Positions 3,937 through 52,278 of a DNA stretch of 52,278 nucleotides are shown piece by piece (position 1 is the stretch's first letter; every line of letters begins with the position of its first letter). Below the pieces are notes generated by a model. The model ran no database searches. It worked only from the letters and a program-made list of their open reading frames with translations, and was not told the origin of the DNA. The stretch comes from Aquificaceae bacterium (GTDB lineage: Bacteria; Aquificota; Aquificia; Aquificales; Aquificaceae), in the NCBI GenBank assembly GCA_025056375.1, contig JANWWH010000004.1:1-52278 (forward strand). The letters run 5' to 3'. The position numbers were made by a program, and so were the translations under genes.

Positions 3937-4641
3937 TCATAAAAAACCTTCAAGAATAGACCTGACTTCCTGCGTATAACCACCTTTTTCCTCGTTAATT
4001 ATCAAAGGCTTTTCTACCACTTGGTCAGGATTGAGATTTTTCAAGGCATGTATGCGCACTATCTTGCCATTTTTTTCAAGTGTTGGATAGAAAAACCTTA
4101 AAGAAGCTACATTTATATTGTGATTTTTCATGTGGAATATAGCCTCAATTAACCTGTTTGAAGCTATTAAGAGGTTTAAACTTCCTCCGTCTCTGAGTAA
4201 AAAACCGGTGGATTTTAAAAAATCTTCAAGAGTTGTATCTTTTTCATGGCGATAACCATCCTTTTTCTGCCCACCTCTGTAAAAGGGTGGGTTTGCTACT
4301 ACCACATCAAAATACTGTGGTCTAAAGACCTTATCTACATGTCTTATGTCCAGTTCCACTGGGCGGACCTTATCCTCCAATCCGTTTGCCCTTGTGTTGT
4401 AGCTCAGAAGCTGTAACATGTGTGGGTCTCTTTCCACAGCCCAAACCTGACAGCCATACTTTAAAGCTATCAATAAAGAGAGGGCTCCAAAGCCAGAACC
4501 TAAGTCAACAACCTTTGAGCTTTTCCTTATACCTTTTAGGTTTGCTAAAAAGAGAAGCTCTACTACGGAGAGCCTGTAGTAGTTTGGCTGTCTGAACCTT
4601 ACCCTACCTCTGAAAAAAGTAAACTCTCTATACCCTTCCAA
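3937..4641 (-). CDS. TrmN6-like SAM-dependent methyltransferase
   Basis: VVDLGSGFGALSLLIA SAM motif and VVANPPFYRGG (NPPF) catalytic motif. Confidence 0.8.
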   Translation of the reverse strand: MEGYREFTFFRGRVRFRQPNYYRLSVVELLFLANLKGIRKSSKVVDLGSGFGALSLLIALKYGCQVWAVERDPHMLQLLSYNTRANGLEDKVRPVELDIRHVDKVFRPQYFDVVVANPPFYRGGQKKDGYRHEKDTTLEDFLKSTGFLLRDGGSLNLLIASNRLIEAIFHMKNHNINVASLRFFYPTLEKNGKIVRIHALKNLNPDQVVEKPLIINEEKGGYTQEVRSILEGFL

Positions 4642-5029
4642 GCCTTTCCACGAGTTCCATAAGGGTTCTTGCCCTTTCTCTGAGTTTCTCGGACTCTGCT
4701 ATCTCTTCCATGGTCTGAGCTGTTGCCAGCTTCTTCATAGCCTGGTCGAAGAGCTCCTTTTCTTTACCGGGGTCTATGTCTCCTATGTTGTAAGCTTCCT
4801 CCGCAAGAATTATCACCTTCTCTGGTGTCACATCCACGAAGCCGTAAGTGACCGCCACACCGTTCTCCTGCTTTCCGTCAAAGTAAACAAGCCCGGGCTT
4901 TAGCATAGTCATAAGAAACATGTGCTTTTCCAGAACGCCTATCTCACCCTCTGCTGTGGGTATGTTTACCGAATGGACCTCCTTCGAGAAGTGCAAGCCT
5001 TGAGGTGTGACAATTTCCACCTTTATCAT
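4628..5029 (-). CDS. atpC: F0F1 ATP synthase epsilon subunit
   Basis: 133 aa; VEIVTPQGLHFSKEVHSVNIPTAEGEIGVLEKH. Confidence 0.92.
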   Translation of the reverse strand: MIKVEIVTPQGLHFSKEVHSVNIPTAEGEIGVLEKHMFLMTMLKPGLVYFDGKQENGVAVTYGFVDVTPEKVIILAEEAYNIGDIDPGKEKELFDQAMKKLATAQTMEEIAESEKLRERARTLMELVERLGRV

Positions 5030-16024: not shown

Positions 16025-17353
16025 ATGAAGGGTTTTGAGTGGACGCCTCACAGAATATTACTCCTTTCCTATGTGGGCATGATAATTGTAGGTTCCTTGC
16101 TCCTATACATGCCCTTTTCCACCACCAAGGAGGTTAGCTATCTGGAGGCACTCTTTACCGCCACCTCCGCCACCACCGTAACCGGTCTGGTAGTTCTGGA
16201 CACGGAGAAGGATTTTACCCTGTGGGGAAAGCTGATAATCCTCTTGCTTATCCAGCTGGGTGGTGTGGGTTACATGACCTTCACCACCTATTTTCTTATA
16301 ATCCTAAGGAGAAAGCTTGGTCTGAGGGAAAGGCTTATACTGGCTGAATCCTTCAACTACCCGGGTATGCACGGACTTGTGAGGTTTGTAAAAAGGATGA
16401 TACCTTTCATCTTACTCGTGGAGTTTCTCGGAGCTCTCCTGCTCTTGCCCTCCTTCTTCTCTAGGGTAGGGGAGCCAGCAGAGGCACTCTTTATCAGCTT
16501 TTTCCATGCCATCTCCGCTTTCAACAACGCGGGCTTCTCCACCTTTTCTAACAACCTCATGGACTTTAGAGGAGAACTATGGGTTAATCTCGTGGTGAGT
16601 GTCCTCATAGTTTTGGGTGGCGTGGGTTTCTATGTAATTTACGAGTTCATTCTCTACCTTAAGGGCGAGCTCAAAAGGCTCTCTACCCACACAAAACTGG
16701 TGCTGGTTTCTTCCTTTCTCCTTACCCTTTTGGGCTTTTTCCTTCTTTTCCTGGACCTTTTAGGGTCCAAAGAACTTTCCTTAAAAGAAAAGCTGATGGT
16801 AAGCCTCTTTCATAGCGTATCCTCAAGGACTGCAGGTTTTAACACCGTAGACATTTCGAAGCTCTCCGAGGCTTCTCAGTTCGTGCTTATAAACCTCATG
16901 TTCGTGGGTGCTTCACCCGGTGGGACGGGTGGTGGCATAAAGACCATAACCGCAGTGGTTGTCTTTCTTGCGGTCCTCTCCTACTTAAGGGGAAGAGAAG
17001 AGGTGGTAGCCTTCGGAAGAAGGCTTTTGGACACGCAGGTTCACAGAGCTATGGTCATCCTAAGCCTTGCCTTTGCTTACAGCACCCTAATGGCAATCCT
17101 ACTGACGGAGCTTGAAGGCGTAAGGCTTATGCCCGCCCTCTTTGAAACCGTCTCCGCCTTTGCCACCGTAGGGCTTTCTTTGGGAAACCCTCAAGGGCTT
17201 AGCCTCTCCGCAGACTTCTCACCTCTGGGCAAAATCCTTATAATTCTCACTATGATAACAGGAAGGGTCGGAGTTCTGGGTTTTATGCTTGCCCTTTTGG
17301 GTAAAGAAAAGCCCAGCCGCGTGAAGCTCCCCGAGGCGAGGCTTTTGCTATGA
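16025..17353 (+). CDS. TrkH/KtrB-type potassium transporter
   Basis: 442 aa; TSATTVTGLVVLDT, FNNAGFS, SRTAGFNTVD, ATVGLSLGNPQ filter loops. Confidence 0.93.
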   Translation: MKGFEWTPHRILLLSYVGMIIVGSLLLYMPFSTTKEVSYLEALFTATSATTVTGLVVLDTEKDFTLWGKLIILLLIQLGGVGYMTFTTYFLIILRRKLGLRERLILAESFNYPGMHGLVRFVKRMIPFILLVEFLGALLLLPSFFSRVGEPAEALFISFFHAISAFNNAGFSTFSNNLMDFRGELWVNLVVSVLIVLGGVGFYVIYEFILYLKGELKRLSTHTKLVLVSSFLLTLLGFFLLFLDLLGSKELSLKEKLMVSLFHSVSSRTAGFNTVDISKLSEASQFVLINLMFVGASPGGTGGGIKTITAVVVFLAVLSYLRGREEVVAFGRRLLDTQVHRAMVILSLAFAYSTLMAILLTELEGVRLMPALFETVSAFATVGLSLGNPQGLSLSADFSPLGKILIILTMITGRVGVLGFMLALLGKEKPSRVKLPEARLLL

Positions 17354-23241: not shown

Positions 23242-24339
23242 ATGCTACCGCAAGAAGTGCTCAGAGAAGCTCTGAAAAGAGGAAAACTAAAGAGCGAAAA
23301 CTTTCAAGGGTTTGAATACTTACGTTTCACCGACGACTTTAAAGATGTTCCCAGGGGCACGGTGCTTTATAAAGATACGGTTATATGGGGCTATCCTCAC
23401 ATAGGTAGGATATTCCAGCTCTCCACAGGCATAAGAGAGCAATTCTCCGCACCTTTCTGGGTAGAGGAGAAGGTAGATGGTTACAACGCACGGGTTTTTT
23501 CTCACGAGGGACAGATATACGCCCTTACGAGGGGTGGCTACGTATGTGCCTTTACAACGGATAGAGTTCTTGATTTTGTAAACCCAAGGTTCTTTGAGGA
23601 CAACCCCCATTTGGTGCTCTGCATGGAGGTGGCAGGACCAGAAAACCCCTACGTAGAAGAGAGCCCCCCTTATGTTAGGGAGGATGTAAGGTTCTTCCTC
23701 TTTGACATCATGGTAAAAAACCGTCAAGATTTTCTGCCCTACAGAGAAAAGCTCAAACTTATACGGGAATATAGTTTACCCAGCGTGGAGAACTTTGGAC
23801 TTTTTAACCTGGACCAAGTGGAGGAATTAAAGGGCATACTAAGAAGGCTCAACGAAGAAAAAAGAGAGGGCGTAGTTTTGAAAGAGGATTCTCCAAAAGA
23901 CAAGAGGGTAAAATACATCACAAGCTATGCCAACCTAAACGATATAAGGGTGACCTCTCTGAACATGCTCGGTCTTCCACCGGATTACTACACTAACAGG
24001 CTCCTTAGACTTGCCCTTTTCATAGAGGAGGAAGGCATTGAAAAAGATGAAGGGCTATACATGGAACTGGGTGAGGCTTTCCTCTCCGGTCTCTTTGAAG
24101 CCTGTAGGATGGCGAAAGAAGAAGGTAAGGTGCGTAGAGTGTTTCGATGTAGGTTCAGAAGCAAGGAAAGAGCTCTTCTCTTTATTGAGCAGATAAAGCA
24201 TGTTTCCACCCACATACAGGTAAACCAACTATCCTTGAGGAAGGAAGGGGAATTCTGGCTTCTTGAATTTGAAAAGGTTTTTCTGAACATGACGGGGCTT
24301 TTGGGTCACCTTCTGGGTGGGGGGTCTTTGGTAGACTAA
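23242..24339 (+). CDS. ATP-dependent RNA ligase, archaeal-type Rnl3 family
   Basis: 365 aa; motif [35 protein letters not shown] nucleotidyltransferase motifs; C-terminal helical domain. Confidence 0.85.
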
Positions 24340-40795: not shown

Positions 40796-41251
40796 ATGGG
40801 CATATTCATAGAAGACCTTCTGAACTTTGGAAATCTGATAGACGCGGAGCTGGAGTTCAAGCTAAGCCCCGAAGAGCTTAAAAAAGCCTACCCCTCTGTG
40901 GACTTTGACATAAGAGAGGGCATACTCAGACTTTTGGTAAAAAAGAAAGTGCTTCTGTGGGAGAAGAGGGTAGAGGTTAGGCTCTCTGAGGATGGGGAGG
41001 TTTTTAAAGACAGAGAAGGCTCGGGACAGTGGGTATTTTTCAAAGTCCTATCGAAGGGAGGGCTTGAGGAGGTGTTGAAACTGCAGGGCTTTAAGTCCGA
41101 AGGCGAAAAACTTGGCGTGGACATAATGCCTGCGGTGTCTATCACGGACACTTACCTTAAGATACCCAAACAGTTCAGGGAAAAACTCCTTATAAACCGC
41201 TACAGGTTGGGTAAGGACCACTTGCTACTTTACTTTAGGTTTGAGAAGTAG
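40796..41251 (+). CDS. Hypothetical protein
   Basis: 151 aa ORF divergent from the GGDEF gene; coherent coding composition, no family recognised. Confidence 0.65.
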   Translation: MGIFIEDLLNFGNLIDAELEFKLSPEELKKAYPSVDFDIREGILRLLVKKKVLLWEKRVEVRLSEDGEVFKDREGSGQWVFFKVLSKGGLEEVLKLQGFKSEGEKLGVDIMPAVSITDTYLKIPKQFREKLLINRYRLGKDHLLLYFRFEK

Positions 41252-44183: not shown

Positions 44184-45743
44184 TTACTTTTTGAAGGCTC
44201 TTCTTGCATAAAGAAACCCATCCTTAACCAGAAGATAGAACACGGGCAGACTTCCGAAAAGAGCCCACACACCTGCCAGAAAAAGAGTTGAGCCAAAGGC
44301 GTCTGAAAAGGCATAAAGGTTTTGAAGCTGGTAAAACATTGCCCTTGCCTTCTCCTCCCCCTGATGGGTATGCAGAGAAAGCCATCCAGAAACCTCCTGC
44401 AACTTTGTCTCAAGCCAGTAGCTATTTTGTGTCTCCGTGCTCCTCTGGAAGTTCTCTGCGGTAAATCTTTGCAGGTCGTTAGTGGCTATGGCAGTTCCAA
44501 AAGACCCCCCCACGAACCTTATGTAATGCATAAGGCTCACGCCAAGGGTGGTCTTTTCACCCAGTTTCTTAAGAGCCATCTGGGTTATGGGTGCAAAGAA
44601 AAACCCCATGCCCGCACCCATAGCAACCAAATAAAGTATGGCGGTATCCCCCGGCGTAAAGTAGTTCAGCTTTGGCAAGAGGAGAAAGTTAACCATAAGG
44701 TAAAGGAAGGTAGCCACATAAAGGGCGAGCTTTGGAGACCTTTTGTCTGAGAGAATGCCAGCCACTGGCGAGAGGAGACCTATGGTAAGAGCCATAGGGA
44801 GAATGGCGATACCTGCCTGAAGGGTGGTGTAGCCCTTTAATTTCTCAAAGTAGAGGGGTATAAGGTAAAAGACCTGATACATAGAAAAGCCGAGCACAAA
44901 GCAGTAAACCCAGAAGGCTATCAAAAATTCCCCTATGCTAAAGATGGAAGGGTCTATCAGCTTGTTCCTTGATATAAGCTCGGACAGCAGGAACAGGAGT
45001 AAGGAAAATAGAGAAAGGAGGCTCAGGTGTAAGATAAGGTCGTTAGCGAACCAGCCCTCCTTCTGACCCCTCGAGAGGACTACGAGAAGGCTAACGGTAG
45101 CAAGTGAGATAAAAAAGTAAGACAGAAAGTTTAACCTTACAGAGTGGAGTGGTCTGTAGTCTTTGAGAAAGAAAAGGGCAAGGGTAAAGTTAAGGATACC
45201 TATAGGAAGGTTTATATAGAAAATCCAGCGCCAGTCTATATGCTCCGTTATCCATCCACCAAGGGTTGGCCCTAAGGCTGGTGCAAAGCTCACCCCCAGC
45301 CCATATATGCCCATGGCGAGTCCCCTCTTCTCTGGAGCGTAGGCAGAGAAAAGAAGGGCCTCCGCACTCACTACTATGAGTGACTCACCAAAACCCTGCA
45401 CAGCCCTTGCGGCTATCATCCAATCTAGGGACTGGGCTTGACCGCAGAAAAGGGATGCAGTGGTAAAGAGAAAAAGCCCCGCAAGAAAAACCCTCTTTAG
45501 ACCCACTTTGCTTTCCAACCATTCTACGAGCAGTATGGCAGTGGCTGCGGAGGTCATGTAGGAGGTTATCACCCACTGAACGCCATACAGGTCTGTGCTG
45601 AGAGGAGCCATCATTTTGGGCACCACTATATCCACTATGGTGGTGTCCAGTATAGCCATAAAGACACCTATCATCAGAGAAAGGGTAAGTATTACCCTAT
45701 CAGCCTGCGTAAGGGTATCGTGGAAAGGTCTTTCCTCTTTCAT
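44184..45743 (-). CDS. DHA2-family MFS drug efflux transporter (EmrB-like)
   Basis: 519 aa multi-TM; MAILDTTIVDIVVPKM, GFGESLIVVSAEALLF, GLGVSFAPALGPTLGGWI. Confidence 0.93.
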   Translation of the reverse strand: MKEERPFHDTLTQADRVILTLSLMIGVFMAILDTTIVDIVVPKMMAPLSTDLYGVQWVITSYMTSAATAILLVEWLESKVGLKRVFLAGLFLFTTASLFCGQAQSLDWMIAARAVQGFGESLIVVSAEALLFSAYAPEKRGLAMGIYGLGVSFAPALGPTLGGWITEHIDWRWIFYINLPIGILNFTLALFFLKDYRPLHSVRLNFLSYFFISLATVSLLVVLSRGQKEGWFANDLILHLSLLSLFSLLLFLLSELISRNKLIDPSIFSIGEFLIAFWVYCFVLGFSMYQVFYLIPLYFEKLKGYTTLQAGIAILPMALTIGLLSPVAGILSDKRSPKLALYVATFLYLMVNFLLLPKLNYFTPGDTAILYLVAMGAGMGFFFAPITQMALKKLGEKTTLGVSLMHYIRFVGGSFGTAIATNDLQRFTAENFQRSTETQNSYWLETKLQEVSGWLSLHTHQGEEKARAMFYQLQNLYAFSDAFGSTLFLAGVWALFGSLPVFYLLVKDGFLYARRAFKK

Positions 45744-46858
45744 TCTCTCTTTATCTCTACCCTTCCGCCCATGCCTACCCTGAGGAGTCTCAACTCCCCT
45801 CTATCTATCCTTATCTTTACCGGTATCCTTTGAACCACCTTCGTAAACTCCCCTGCGGATACATCTCTGGGCACCAGTGCGAAGGTGCTGGCAGAGGCGG
45901 GGCTTATCTCCTCCACCACACCCTCAAAGACCAGCTCAGGATAGGCATCGAGCCTAAGGTAAGCTTTAGAACCTTTCTTTATGCCTCGGAGCTTGGTTTC
46001 CTCTAAAAGTGCCTCCGCATAGTAAGAGCCCTCTTCTATAAGGCTAAAGGCAGGCTGTCCCGGACGGACCGTATCCCCTGGGCTAACAAACCTCTTGGCT
46101 ACTACACCCCTTACGGGGGAGAGGAGCTCTGTCCTTTTTAGGTCCAGCTCCGCCCTCTCCTCCTGAAACCTGAGGGCTTTTATCTCCTCTTCCACCGCCC
46201 TCAGCTGTTCTTTCAGTTCCTGAACTTTCAGCCTTTCCAACTCCGAGGCTCTTAACTCCTTCTGCATCCTTGAGTGGAGGCTTTTTATCTCCATCAGACT
46301 ACTTTCTAAGGCTTCTTTCTTAAGTAGCTGGCTTCTGTAGAGAGTTTCCACTTGCTCAAGCCTCTGCTTGGGTATAAGCCCCTCTTTGAAAAGGTTTTCC
46401 AACCTGTCCCTTTCTCTCTTCGTTTGCTCTACTTGAAGCGCCATCTCCTTTATCTGTTTGGTGAGGGCTTCTTCCCTTGCGGATATCTCCTTTAGGCTGT
46501 CCTGAGACATGCCCACTCTTAAATCCAGCTGTCTTTCCAGCCTGTCTATCTGAAGCCTTAGCCCCTCTCTCTGGGCTATCAAAGATGCCAGCTTGCTTTT
46601 TTGAGCTTCCAAGTTCAGTCGGTAGTCCTCCACCCCTATCCTTGCCAGAGGTTCACCCTCCTTCACATAATCTCCCATATCTTTGTATACTTCCTCCACC
46701 TTTCCACCTACTTCAAAGGACAGGCTCACCATCCGCTCCGACCTGATGAAGACCGCATCTGTTATGGCGTAGTCTCTGCGGTGTTTTATCCACCTGTAAG
46801 AAAGAAACCCAAAGGTCAAGAGCAGGAGCAGTAAAATACCGGCGCCCAGCCTTTTCAT
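45740..46858 (-). CDS. HlyD family secretion protein (EmrA-like)
   Basis: N-terminal TM, GKVEEVYKDMGDYVKEGEPLARIG, long coiled coil, LLSPVRGVVAKRFVSPGDTV. Confidence 0.92.
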   Translation of the reverse strand: MKRLGAGILLLLLLTFGFLSYRWIKHRRDYAITDAVFIRSERMVSLSFEVGGKVEEVYKDMGDYVKEGEPLARIGVEDYRLNLEAQKSKLASLIAQREGLRLQIDRLERQLDLRVGMSQDSLKEISAREEALTKQIKEMALQVEQTKRERDRLENLFKEGLIPKQRLEQVETLYRSQLLKKEALESSLMEIKSLHSRMQKELRASELERLKVQELKEQLRAVEEEIKALRFQEERAELDLKRTELLSPVRGVVAKRFVSPGDTVRPGQPAFSLIEEGSYYAEALLEETKLRGIKKGSKAYLRLDAYPELVFEGVVEEISPASASTFALVPRDVSAGEFTKVVQRIPVKIRIDRGELRLLRVGMGGRVEIKRE

Positions 46859-48123
46859 AACTGACCTACCTCACGCATAAGCTCAAAGTAAGCTCTGAGG
46901 AGGTCGTAGTAAGCCAAAACCCTTGCCTTCCTCGCCTGAGTGAGGCTCGCTTCTGCCTGAAGCAGGTCCGTTCCACTTATTATCTGGTTTTTGTATTGCT
47001 CCAGAGACAGCCTGTAGAACTCCTCCGCAAACTTCAGAGAGACCTCGGCTACCCTCAGGTTGTCCTCCGCAGTCCTTAACTGCTCGTAAGCGGTTTTCAC
47101 TTTGAGGATTATCCCCTCCTTTACCTCTCTTAGGTCTTCGCCAAATCCTCGCCTTTCCTCCTCCAAGGCAAGGGCTCGGTAGTAAGGGGCAAGAGACTGG
47201 AAGTTAAGGCTCATGCCGAGGCTAAGATACACAAAGCCCTTTGGTTTAAGGTTAGGGTTTTGGTCCGAGTGGCTGTATGCCGCCTCCAGAAAGAGCCTGG
47301 GATAAAAGGAAGAGAGCTCCGCCTTCCTCTGAAGTGTGTTTATCCTTAGCCTTTCCTCAAGGTTTTTTAAGAGGGGTCTGTTCTTGAGCGCCCCTTCTAT
47401 CAGGTTCTGAAGCTCAAGTCTTTTAAGCTCTACTTGGGGTGGCTTAAGGTTCTTCAATCTCTCTTCCTCAAAGCCGGTGAGCCTCGAAAGGTTTGCCAGA
47501 GCTATTAGGTATTCTCCCTCCACCCTTCTGAGGTCTCTTTCCACCTCCGCAAGTCTAACCCTTGCCTGAAGAAGGTCCGTAACTGCAACCAGCCCTTCTC
47601 TGTAGAAGGCTTCTCTCTGCGAGAGGTCCGCCTCTACAGCCTCTTTCTGCTTTTTTACCACCTGCAGAAGCTCGCTGGCGGACAGGAGAGAAAGAAAAGC
47701 CCTTATAACCTCCAGTCTAACTTCCAGCTTTGCTTCTTCCAAGTCGCCCTCCTCCAGCCTTACTTTGCTTCTTGCCACCTCTACCCTCGAAGCTCTCAAC
47801 CCTCCATCGTAAAGAGTCTGTCTAATACCCAGCTGGAAGCTCCCGTAACTCTTCTTTGAACCCACCATCTGTATGGGGGGAAAGCCTCCAAAGGAGGGTA
47901 TGGTGATAGATTGTTTTTTCAATTGCCAGTTAAGGCGGTAGGCTGAGAAGAGCTCAGGATAGTATAGCTGTCTCTCTCCTTGAAGGTTTAGATGGGCGGA
48001 TTGTAGTCTATGTCTTTGGGCGAGAAGCCTGGGGTTTTTCTCCTCTGCAGACCTGAGCAAGTCTTCAAGACCAAGAGAGAAGGATAGAGAGAGGCTAAGC
48101 AGTAAAACCAATATCAACCGCAT
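46855..48123 (-). CDS. TolC family outer-membrane efflux protein (second copy)
   Basis: 422 aa; signal peptide, TolC repeat architecture, 4-bp overlap with the EmrA-like gene. Confidence 0.9.
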   Translation of the reverse strand: MRLILVLLLSLSLSFSLGLEDLLRSAEEKNPRLLAQRHRLQSAHLNLQGERQLYYPELFSAYRLNWQLKKQSITIPSFGGFPPIQMVGSKKSYGSFQLGIRQTLYDGGLRASRVEVARSKVRLEEGDLEEAKLEVRLEVIRAFLSLLSASELLQVVKKQKEAVEADLSQREAFYREGLVAVTDLLQARVRLAEVERDLRRVEGEYLIALANLSRLTGFEEERLKNLKPPQVELKRLELQNLIEGALKNRPLLKNLEERLRINTLQRKAELSSFYPRLFLEAAYSHSDQNPNLKPKGFVYLSLGMSLNFQSLAPYYRALALEEERRGFGEDLREVKEGIILKVKTAYEQLRTAEDNLRVAEVSLKFAEEFYRLSLEQYKNQIISGTDLLQAEASLTQARKARVLAYYDLLRAYFELMREVGQL

Positions 48124-48689
48124 CTCAAACCCCTGAAGATAAGCTCAAGACCCTCCTCCGCTTCTTTCAACACTTCTTGAAGGCTTACTTTCTCCAGAAG
48201 TAGCTTTTCCATATATACCAACTTCACATAACCCACTATAAGGTTAAGGAGGATGTCAGGACGCCCACACCTGAACTCACCCCTTTCGTAACCCATCTTT
48301 ACCATCTGACGGAGGAGCTCTCTTATTTCCTCCATGTGCCTGTAGTGGAGCTGTCGGAAGGCTTCCTTACTGCACATAAGCTCAAAGAAAAACACGTAGG
48401 CTATCTGTCTATCTTCGTAGCACTCGGTGAGGAAGTCTCTTATGTGTCCCTTTATAGCCTCTTCTGAGGACACGCCCTTACGGAGCCACCTTTTCATTAT
48501 GTCCTTCGTCTTATCCGCCATGCGGTTCACCAGCTCCTCCATCAGCTGGTCCTTGCTCCTAAAGTAAAAATAAAAGGCACCCTTCGATAGCCCTGCCTGC
48601 TTAACTATTTCATCCACCGAGGTGTTGCTGTAGCCCTTTTGAGAGAAGAGCTCCTTTGCTGTGTTGATTATCCTCTCTTTTGCGTTCAT
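48114..48689 (-). CDS. TetR/AcrR family regulator
   Basis: RIINTAKELFSQKGYSNTSVDEIVKQAGLSKGAFYFYFRSKDQLMEEL. Confidence 0.95.
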   Translation of the reverse strand: MNAKERIINTAKELFSQKGYSNTSVDEIVKQAGLSKGAFYFYFRSKDQLMEELVNRMADKTKDIMKRWLRKGVSSEEAIKGHIRDFLTECYEDRQIAYVFFFELMCSKEAFRQLHYRHMEEIRELLRQMVKMGYERGEFRCGRPDILLNLIVGYVKLVYMEKLLLEKVSLQEVLKEAEEGLELIFRGLRCG

Positions 48690-49903
48690 TTTGTCAACCT
48701 TTCCAGCCTTGCCAGTGCGGTGTTATACTGAAACAGAGCAAGGTAATAGTTCTGTAGTATCTGGTTGTAATTGCTTACCACTTCCAGCACCTCGAGCTGT
48801 GTGGCAACGCCAAAACGGTATCGCTCCGTAGAAAGCCTGAAGCTTTCCTTTGCCCACTCTAAGGAGAGCTCCAGAGCTCTTATCTGAGCTTGCAGTGACC
48901 TTGTTTCCTCAAGGGTTTTGAGAAACTCCGCCCTTATCTTGTTCTCCGTCTCTTTCAGGTTCTCCGCCTGTTTTAGGACTTCTATCCTTGCCTGTGAGAG
49001 GCTTGCTTCACGGGCAAATCCGTCAAAAATCCTGTAGCTGAGCCTTGCACCGAAAGTGTAGCCCTCTACCAGCTCCACCTGCCCTCCCACTCTGGCGGTG
49101 TTGCCCTGGTAGTTTGCAAAGAAGTTCAGCGTTGGGTAGTATTGAGATTCCTGAACCCCCACCGCCCTCTGGGCTACCTCCAAGTTTTTCTTAGCCACCT
49201 TTAGGGTAGAGTTGTTCCTGAGAAGGGCTTCCCTGTCTACGCTTATGGGTTGTGTGTAGGTAAGGCTACCCTGTGGTTCTACCCTCTCTTCAAGCTGGAG
49301 GAAGGCTCTGAGGTCTTCCAGAGACTTGCGGTAATCCGCTCTTGCACCTTCCAGCTGAGCCTTTACATTTTCCAGCTGAGCCTTTGCCCTGACGAGCTCC
49401 ACCTTTGGCACCATGCCCGCCTGAAACCTACCCTCCGTCTGTCTGAGGTTCTCTTCCCAGTATTTGAGGTTCTCTTCAAGTAGCCTTATAACCTCCTTTC
49501 TATAAAGGAGGGCATAGAAGAGCGCCTTCGTCTGAAACTCCACCTCCCTTAAAGTATCCTGACGCAAGAACTCTTGGAGCTCTCTTTGCTCTTTTGCCAG
49601 CTTTATACCCTCAAAGACCGCCCTGTTGAACACCGCCTGCTCCACCTCGAGGCTGTAGCTGTGTCTGTTTTTAGGCGTAAAGCCAAAGGCAAGGTCATCG
49701 CTGAGCCTGGTGTAGCTGTAGGAGAGACCCACCTGGGGCATTATGCCTGCCCTTGCCTTGCGTATGCCCTCCTCCGCCTTCTGAAGCTCAAGGGTGGAAA
49801 GCTTTAGGGAACTGTGATTTTTCACTGCTATTTCCACCGCCTGCTCAAGGGTAAGAGCTACAGCCCAGAAGAAGTTAAACAGTATAAAGAACAACAGCTT
49901 CAT
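48686..49903 (-). CDS. TolC family outer-membrane efflux protein (first copy)
   Basis: 405 aa; LTLEQAVEIAVKNHSSLKLSTLE...ARLSYRIFDGFAREASLSQA. Confidence 0.93.
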   Translation of the reverse strand: MKLLFFILFNFFWAVALTLEQAVEIAVKNHSSLKLSTLELQKAEEGIRKARAGIMPQVGLSYSYTRLSDDLAFGFTPKNRHSYSLEVEQAVFNRAVFEGIKLAKEQRELQEFLRQDTLREVEFQTKALFYALLYRKEVIRLLEENLKYWEENLRQTEGRFQAGMVPKVELVRAKAQLENVKAQLEGARADYRKSLEDLRAFLQLEERVEPQGSLTYTQPISVDREALLRNNSTLKVAKKNLEVAQRAVGVQESQYYPTLNFFANYQGNTARVGGQVELVEGYTFGARLSYRIFDGFAREASLSQARIEVLKQAENLKETENKIRAEFLKTLEETRSLQAQIRALELSLEWAKESFRLSTERYRFGVATQLEVLEVVSNYNQILQNYYLALFQYNTALARLERLTK

Positions 49904-50958
49904 CTCACCTCCACCCTAATACCCTGCTGTAGTATGTAGGCGTTCTCAAGGGCTATGCCCTCACCTTCCTTAAGGTCGCCCTTCAGGTAGACTAACCCCT
50001 GTCCTTGCTTTATAACCTCTACCTGCACTGGTTGGGCGACCCCATCTTGCACTTTCCAGACCACCCTTCTGTTACCCTGAAGCACCACCGCCTGCTCTGG
50101 CACTACAAAGGCTCTTTCCACACCCTTTATAAGGCTTACCTCTCCATACATGCCGGGCTTGAGAAGACCCTTCGAGTTGTCAAGCCTTGCCTTTACCGTC
50201 AAAAGCCTGTTCTGGTCTGCAACGGGTGAGAGGAAAAAGACCTTACCCTCAAAGTCTCCAAAGGGCTCCACCCTCACGCGAACCTTTGAACCCTCCTTCG
50301 CATATGGCAGGTATTCCTGTGGTATTTGGAAGACCAACCTTATGGGGTTTAGAGTTACGAGACGGAGGGTTTGCGTCTGAGGGGTTACATAGTCTCCTAA
50401 GTTTACAAGCCTTTGGGCTATGTATCCGGAGAAGGGGGCTGTTAGGGTCGTCCTTGATAGGTTGAGCTTTGCGTTGTTCAGCTGTGCCTGAAGGCTTTTT
50501 AGGAGCTCTTCCTGAGACCTTAGCTGTGTCTGTAAGCTCTCATACTCCTCTCTGGCTATCAGCTCTCTTTCAAATAGAAACCTTCTTCTCTCTACCACCG
50601 CCTTGAGGTTTTCGTAGTTTGCTCTCGCCTGTGCAAGTTGAGCCTCAACCTGCCTTACCGAGTTCTCGTAGTCTGCAGGGTCTACCCTGAGCAAAGCCTG
50701 TCCTGATTTTACAAAGTTACCCTCTTCCACCATAAGGCTTACGACCCTTCCGCTCACAAGAGGCTTGAGAGTTACGTCTCTCTCACCTTCAAAGTAGCCC
50801 TTGGTGTTGTATTCTACGGGGACATCCTCTACTTTGAGCTTGTAGAGGCTTACCACTACCTTCCTCTCCTGAGGCTTTTTTGGCTCACTCCTTTCCTGTC
50901 TCTGACAAGAAGACAGGAAAAGGGTCATAAGAAAAACGGGAAGGATAAACCTTCTCAT
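49900..50958 (-). CDS. RND efflux periplasmic adaptor lipoprotein
   Basis: 352 aa; lipobox LFLSSC; GRVVSLMVEEGNFVKSGQALLRVDPADY; TTLTAPFSGYIAQRLVNLGDYV. Confidence 0.94.
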   Translation of the reverse strand: MRRFILPVFLMTLFLSSCQRQERSEPKKPQERKVVVSLYKLKVEDVPVEYNTKGYFEGERDVTLKPLVSGRVVSLMVEEGNFVKSGQALLRVDPADYENSVRQVEAQLAQARANYENLKAVVERRRFLFERELIAREEYESLQTQLRSQEELLKSLQAQLNNAKLNLSRTTLTAPFSGYIAQRLVNLGDYVTPQTQTLRLVTLNPIRLVFQIPQEYLPYAKEGSKVRVRVEPFGDFEGKVFFLSPVADQNRLLTVKARLDNSKGLLKPGMYGEVSLIKGVERAFVVPEQAVVLQGNRRVVWKVQDGVAQPVQVEVIKQGQGLVYLKGDLKEGEGIALENAYILQQGIRVEVR

Positions 50959-50966
50959 AGTAGAAG

Positions 50967-51002
50967 TATTATAACATACTGACTGGTCGGTAGGTTATAA
51001 TA
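50967..51002. promoter_or_regulatory. 36-bp near-palindrome: putative TetR operator plus two divergent -10 boxes
   Basis: TATTATAACATACTGAC-TG-GTCGGTAGGTTATAATA; arms match at 15/17 positions; each arm holds a TATAAT box and an ACYGAC half-site. Confidence 0.75.
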
Positions 51003-51010
51003 TAGCTCTG

Positions 51011-52278
51011 ATGTATAAGTTCTTTATACACAGACCCGTTACCTCTTGGATGTTTATGATAGCCTTTATACTGCTTGGTTTGTATTCCTTGAGGAACATA
51101 CCTCTGGATAGGCTTCCCGACGTGGACTTCCCTACGGTAAGCATAGTAACCACCTATCCCGGAGCTAATGCCTATGTGGTGGATGTTAATGTAACCAGAA
51201 AGATAGAGGACCAGATAGCCACCATAAGCGGTATTGAGACCATATCCTCAACCAGCTTTGCGGGCACTTCAAGGATAACCATAACCTTTTCTTTGGAGAA
51301 GGACATAGACGTAGCAGCTCAGGAAGTTAGAGATACGGTGCAAAGGGTTCTTAGAAGACTTCCAGAAGGTGTAGACCCACCGGTGGTCAGGAAGGTGGAT
51401 ACATCCCTTTCGCCTGTCTTTGTTACACTTTTACACTCAAAAACTGCGGACTATCAGACCCTCGCCTACTGGGCGGACAAGGTCATAAAAAGAGAGTTTG
51501 AAAGGATAAACGGCGTGGGTCAGGTGGACTTGGGCGGCTTTAGGGACAACGTGCTCTGGGTTAGGGTTGACCCAGAAAAGCTCTATGCCAGAGGTCTTGC
51601 AGTTCAGGACGTGTTAGAGTCTGTGGAAAAGAACCACCTTGAAGCACCCGCCGGCACCGTATACGGCAAAAACAGGGAATACATCATCAGACTATACGGC
51701 AAGGTAAGGGATGCTAAGGAGCTGGAAAGGGTCTACATAAGAAACGGCGTAAGGCTTGGGGACGTGGGTTTTGTGGAGTTTACAGAGGACGAAAAAAGGG
51801 GCATGTCAAGGTTTAACGGTGAGCAGGCAATAGTGCTTGTAGTATACAAGCAGTCAAAAACCAACACGGTTCAGGTGGTAGATGCGGTAAAGGCAAAGAT
51901 GGAAGAGCTAAATAAACAGCTTCCACCCGGCATGAGGATGGACTTTACCTTTGACTCTTCCATCTTCGTCAAGGACAGCGTAAGAGCCGCCATAGAGGAA
52001 ATCATCATAGGAAGCCTTCTTACCGCTCTCGTGGTCTACTTTTTCCTTGGAAGCATAAGGCTTACCTTTGTTCCCGTCTTTGCCATACCCATAACCCTTC
52101 TTGGCACTGTCTTTTTCCTCTTTCAACTGGATAACTCTCTAAACACCTTTACCCTTCTGGGACTTGCGGTAGCCGTGGGTATAGTGATAGACGACGCTAT
52201 AGTGGTTCTTGAAAGCATATACAGGAGAAGGTACGAAGAGGGTCTTGAGCCTATACAGGCGGGCGAAGTGGGCACGCG
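51011..52278 (+). CDS. RND efflux pump permease (AcrB-like), truncated by the window end
   Basis: MYKFFIHRPVTSWMFMIAFILLGLYSLRNIPLDRLPDVDFPTVSIVTTYPGANAYVV; open frame runs off the window, so it is absent from the ORF track. Confidence 0.93.
   Translation, partial: MYKFFIHRPVTSWMFMIAFILLGLYSLRNIPLDRLPDVDFPTVSIVTTYPGANAYVVDVNVTRKIEDQIATISGIETISSTSFAGTSRITITFSLEKDIDVAAQEVRDTVQRVLRRLPEGVDPPVVRKVDTSLSPVFVTLLHSKTADYQTLAYWADKVIKREFERINGVGQVDLGGFRDNVLWVRVDPEKLYARGLAVQDVLESVEKNHLEAPAGTVYGKNREYIIRLYGKVRDAKELERVYIRNGVRLGDVGFVEFTEDEKRGMSRFNGEQAIVLVVYKQSKTNTVQVVDAVKAKMEELNKQLPPGMRMDFTFDSSIFVKDSVRAAIEEIIIGSLLTALVVYFFLGSIRLTFVPVFAIPITLLGTVFFLFQLDNSLNTFTLLGLAVAVGIVIDDAIVVLESIYRRRYEEGLEPIQAGEVGT

Follow-up and report, generated by a model that had tools for sequence, protein, structure and literature searches.

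A conserved palindrome between divergent RND efflux genes of Aquificaceae is a predicted operator of the TetR-family protein encoded in the adjacent operon

In a heat-loving Aquificaceae bacterium, the genes for an RND pump and an RND periplasmic adaptor diverge from an intergenic region of 52 bp, between the adaptor ATG at 50958 and the pump ATG at 51011, that contains a 36-bp near-palindrome (Table 1). Does this symmetry mark a regulatory site, and if so, for which regulator and which genes? The initial annotation had read the element as a TetR operator fused to two mirror-image -10 boxes. The sequence that it quoted is present as given: the arms (50967-50983 and 50986-51002) are 17 nt each around a 2-nt centre, our repeat search scored 15 of 17 positions as complementary (88%), in agreement with the two exceptions already counted, and each arm holds a TATAAT, one per strand. 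When the window (the whole stretch analysed, 52,278 nt) was scanned for inverted repeats with 17-nt arms, 15 or more matching positions and an arm spacing of 0-8, this was the sole site to pass; a first-order Markov simulation of the 52-kb sequence yielded on average 0.025 inverted repeats of equal quality per copy, and among 20,000 Markov-simulated versions of the 52-bp intergenic region, 2 contained one. The 36-mer is single copy in the assembly even with up to 3 mismatches allowed.

Table 1. Features of the operator region and the flanking genes, with positions in the window
Feature	Position	Strand	Remarks
Near-palindrome, 36 bp	50967..51002	.	24-bp operator plus both flanking -10 boxes
Operator AACATACTGACTGGTCGGTAGGTT	50973..50996	.	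24 bp; kept before orthologous adaptor and pump genes
Pump-promoter -10, TATAAT	50996..51001	+	1-nt overlap with operator; same operator-relative position in 20/21 pump-side sites
Adaptor-TolC-TetR operon -10, TATAAT	50968..50973	-	Same operator-relative position in most adaptor-side sites
TGn of extended -10 (TGTTATAAT)	50974..50976	-	Adaptor side, within operator edge
Predicted pump mRNA leader	51008..51010	+	~3 nt (range 1-6), inferred from -10 position; no Shine-Dalgarno (SD) sequence
Predicted adaptor mRNA leader	50959..50961	-	~3 nt, inferred from -10 position; no SD
RND pump, 5' part	51011..52276	+	Pfam ACR_tran 2.2e-123; gene extends past window end
RND periplasmic adaptor, gene 1 of divergent operon	49900..50958	-	RND_mfp TIGR01730 1.9e-76
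TolC-type outer membrane factor, gene 2	48686..49903	-	OEP 7.2e-61
TetR-family repressor, gene 3, proposed operator-binding protein	48114..48689	-	TetR_N 2.3e-20
Second TolC-type gene, overlaps tetR	46855..48123	-	ORF; syntenic in relatives
EmrA-like adaptor	45740..46858	-	ORF; syntenic in relatives
EmrB-like MFS pump, last overlapping gene	44184..45743	-	ORF; syntenic in relatives

In 21 Aquificaceae genomes, this operator lies before the RND-pump gene, the adaptor-TolC-TetR operon or both, and the upstream regions of the relatives' adaptor and pump genes give the consensus AACATACYGAC-NN-GTCRGTNKGTT. Divergent adaptor and pump genes share one common operator in G000, G009, G007, G013, G010 and G005, and also in another genus (G038, G040 and G041). 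Where pump and adaptor lie apart (G004, G008, G050, G052 and G054-G057), the pump keeps an operator of its own in 8 of 8 genomes, and so does the adaptor in each of the five genomes whose adaptor side was read (G004, G008, G050, G052 and G057); G054-G056 have a further site ~2 kb upstream of tetR. At three Aquifex-like loci (L037, L038 and L105) the operator stands directly upstream of tetR, without an adaptor gene.

In most genomes, TATAAT begins at the operator's last base on each gene-facing side. Because relatives with separated genes have this box on the gene-facing side only, we regard the two boxes as separate promoter parts; the far side as a rule lacks a TATAAT when its gene is absent, and the 36-bp symmetry is therefore composite, one operator together with the ends of two promoters. 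Thus, the near-palindrome is real, but the notion of one fused 36-bp element has to be narrowed to an operator proper of 24 bp with the -10 boxes appended. The symmetry could instead reflect nothing more than two face-to-face promoters around a centre that is not a TetR site, as TATAAT is placed symmetrically in each arm and symmetric promoters can fire both ways. However, the 24-bp centre is kept beside a single promoter and before tetR alone, and in 64 genomes its occurrence follows that of TetR; we consider this account very improbable. The site at 50967-51002 is real and very probably functions as an operator.

Which protein would use it? Among these 64 family genomes, scored for a TetR ortholog at E<=1e-20 and for the operator at <=2 mismatches, the co-occurrence counts were 25/4/1/34 (Fisher p=1.4e-12, a value that overstates the case because related genomes are not independent). 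This co-occurrence, together with the position of the operator before tetR itself where no adaptor precedes it, speaks for the earlier proposal that the adjacent operon's own TetR is the probable regulator. Some relatives have several TetR-family paralogues, and diverse TetR proteins bind similar cores (e.g., PaaR and TTHB023), which would be compatible with binding by another paralogue, or with TetR acting as an activator. Against this, site presence follows the ortholog group of the protein encoded at 48114-48689, the Aquifex-like genomes carry the site before a tetR of that same group, and repression is favoured if the bound protein overlaps the -10 boxes; we judge another regulator or an activator to be unlikely.

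Several genomes depart from the common pattern. In G012, adaptor and pump genes diverge but the operator is missing, and the search for a close TetR was negative in this genome, which is only ~65% complete; the intergenic region of the pair (L163:1440-1520) has a different inverted repeat, GCAATT-n7-AATTGC. G042 has TetR and only a degenerate site, and G024 and G034 have weaker, more distant TetR homologs together with a variant palindrome, TACCGAGCGCTCGGTA (L099:904 and L100:2072), which suggests a shifted operator specificity. In G006, an exact operator lies near an MFS-transporter coding sequence (L162:1634-1657; G006:C26:2633-2656) with no -10 box abutting either side, and it is possibly an extra target or an assembly oddity. 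All genome-wide statistics are those of pattern searches. In the genome of the window itself, the strict operator core has one match, and because matches at 2 mismatches were no commoner than those of a reversed control, we claim no further regulon members.

The protein itself carries an N-terminal TetR_N helix-turn-helix (PF00440, 72.5 bits; cutoff, 24), and a palindromic site lies near the promoter of its own operon, as is expected of the TetR family. It scored far below every cut-off of the NCBIfam equivalogs (AcrR, MtrR, FadR and others) and is assignable only as a TetR-family member. Orthologs with 59-79% identity are present in 12 of the 13 other genomes of the genus, more distant ones (33-41%) occur elsewhere in the family, and most helix-turn-helix residues of LSKGAFYFYFKSK vary little or not at all in orthologs with the site, including those with only 34% overall identity. 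The TetR at L105 shows full identity to PDB 2EH3, an Aquifex aeolicus protein, across 179 residues; a literature search on 2EH3 found no paper on its function.

The two promoters are alike in being reduced. A general sigma-70 promoter scan returned neither of them because -35 hexamers are missing: none was found 16-18 nt from the -10 of either promoter. The adaptor side fits an extended -10 (TGTTATAAT) and the pump side (GGTTATAAT) does not; TGnTATAAT or TGnTAAAAT occurs at 14 adaptor-side sites, with TGn on the pump side in only a few relatives, and on the adaptor side TGn may stand in for the missing -35. The initial annotation had placed the pump -10 about 10 nt from ATG 51011 with no SD sequence, and the gap is 9 nt, with no SD sequence. 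It is 9 nt on the adaptor side too, a symmetry absent from that account, and 6-11 nt on both sides across genomes. SD energies upstream of the two genes are -2.7 and +1.0, and the median for the window is -6.3. The RND start at ATG 51011 is conserved, and the Pfam ACR_tran match begins at residue 1.

Because such short gaps without SD sequences recur on both sides, both mRNAs are predicted to be near-leaderless, which keeps the suggestion made earlier for the pump mRNA and extends it to the adaptor mRNA. Transcription would start at 51008 and 50961, positions 47 bp apart, with translation proceeding without an SD sequence. Leaderless genes of the Aquificae type have been recognized by a TATAAT-like box whose first T lies ~12 bp upstream of the start and by the lack of an SD sequence (Zheng 2011); here, the first T lies 15 bp upstream on both sides. 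Near-leaderlessness is ordinary for the phylum, since TAtaaT signals near starts are reported in Aquifex aeolicus and the share of leaderless genes is 20.7-32.4% in the two Aquificae genomes with detected leaderless genes (PMC3160421). A -10-like box also lies 14-16 nt ahead of the start codon in four other SD-poor genes in the window (4628-5029, 16025-17353, 23242-24339 and 40796-41251), which makes them further near-leaderless candidates. The predicted starts also bear on a possible role of the palindrome at the RNA level (hairpin, terminator or attenuator). Although its arms can pair, there is no Rfam match, the sole terminator-like site called is inside the adaptor gene, and because the predicted start sites fall outside the palindrome, these promoters would not transcribe it. 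We regard such a role as extremely improbable.

We consider it highly likely that the TetR protein encoded at 48114-48689 has the 24-bp palindrome as its operator and would repress both divergent promoters and its own operon. A TetR dimer, or a pair of dimers, bound on the palindrome would cover the would-be -35/spacer region of both promoters and touch both -10 boxes; RNA polymerase would therefore be kept off the pump promoter (+ strand) and the adaptor-TolC-TetR-TolC-EmrA-EmrB promoter (- strand) together, until a pump substrate or other ligand released the repressor. Two polymerases probably cannot sit in the intergenic region together, given the distance between the inferred starts. That a single operator would shut two outward promoters, as had been suggested, accords with the finding that each gene keeps the operator whether the genes adjoin or stand apart. 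The - strand genes overlap in the order adaptor, TolC, TetR, and TetR is therefore third in the operon that it would repress. The analysis establishes the sequence, its conservation, its gene context and its co-occurrence with TetR; binding, repression, ligand release and the start sites are inferred, and two-way repression with autorepression by this protein is strongly supported. A second full pump set (TolC, EmrA and EmrB; 44184-48123) follows tetR in overlapping genes, and a single operator may therefore control two efflux systems, one RND and one MFS.

In G001, G002, G003 and G011, two direct-repeat operators flank a hicBA toxin-antitoxin cassette, made up of a gene for the HicB antitoxin (PF15919) and a region of hicA (PF07927) (L076:8488-8977, L078:4130-4619, L079:4166-4809 and L080:9412-9802). 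G003 has an intact hicA frame; in G001, G002 and G011 the frame is interrupted or truncated. At the operator edge on the hicB side the sequence is GTTGACA, and a possible hicB -35 (TTGACA) thus overlaps the operator. Next to the G003 adaptor (L079:4631-4809), the operator occurs a third time together with a stretch of N, probably an assembly join. In the RND tree, the hicBA-bearing clade is nested among shared-operator genomes with a support of 74, in a tree whose deep-node support is low at several nodes (18-82), and this placement is only suggestive with regard to operator duplication by insertion. It is conceivable, at somewhat less than even chances, that the 24-bp operator, its abutting -10 and the near-leaderless ATG form a portable Aquificaceae control unit, duplicated by insertions (the four hicBA genomes) and rearrangements (the splits in G004 and G008), that would keep flanking and even inserted toxin-antitoxin genes under one TetR.

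For this Aquificaceae TetR group, represented among solved structures by its Aquifex-like ortholog (2EH3), these results predict a binding site and a regulon, and they provide a compact model of one repressor that would control two near-leaderless promoters together. Leaderless initiation in Aquificota could also be studied directly at this conserved, two-sided arrangement.

One repressor silencing both directions is a well-known kind of control. TetR/tetA and QacR-type systems are efflux-gene repressors that act on short divergent intergenic regions, and the likeness extends to the length here (<200 bp); here, however, tetR is the third gene of its operon, and the genes that diverge are adaptor and pump, not tetR and pump. 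The E. coli bioO/BirA system likewise has a single palindromic operator across two face-to-face promoters, but BirA is not a TetR-family protein and the bioO mRNAs are not near-leaderless; literature searches on face-to-face promoters and on bioO found nothing useful. The operator core resembles published operators of the TetR family, those of PaaR and of TTHB023 (PfmR). PaaR of Burkholderia cenocepacia is a TetR-type repressor with a core inverted repeat, ACCGACCGGTCGGT, between -35 and -10, but it controls phenylacetate catabolism, and the accessible part of that report describes no divergent shared PaaR site (PMC2770484). TTHB023 is, like the protein here, a TetR-family member from a thermophile (Thermus thermophilus); its earlier predicted site, TACCGACCGNTNGGTN, fits our core, and its nine promoter targets include two bidirectional promoter regions, whereas its refined consensus is 16 bp and its targets include fatty-acid genes (PMC7022988), the comparison being one of binding site and targets and not of orthology. 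TetR-family proteins as a rule regulate divergent neighbours that lie <200 bp apart (PMC3511530). AcuR of the Rhodobacter sphaeroides acuR-acuI-dddL operon is a TetR-family autorepressor whose inverted-repeat operator overlaps the promoter of a leaderless mRNA without an SD sequence; it differs in acting in one direction only, in acuR being the first gene, in controlling enzymes and not pumps, and in its operator, TAATAGAC-n6-GTCTATTA, which comes with -35 and -10 hexamers (PMC3017554). The features that the Aquificaceae system has for itself are a regulator third in its operon, adaptor and pump as the divergent partners, and predicted near-leaderless starts on both sides.
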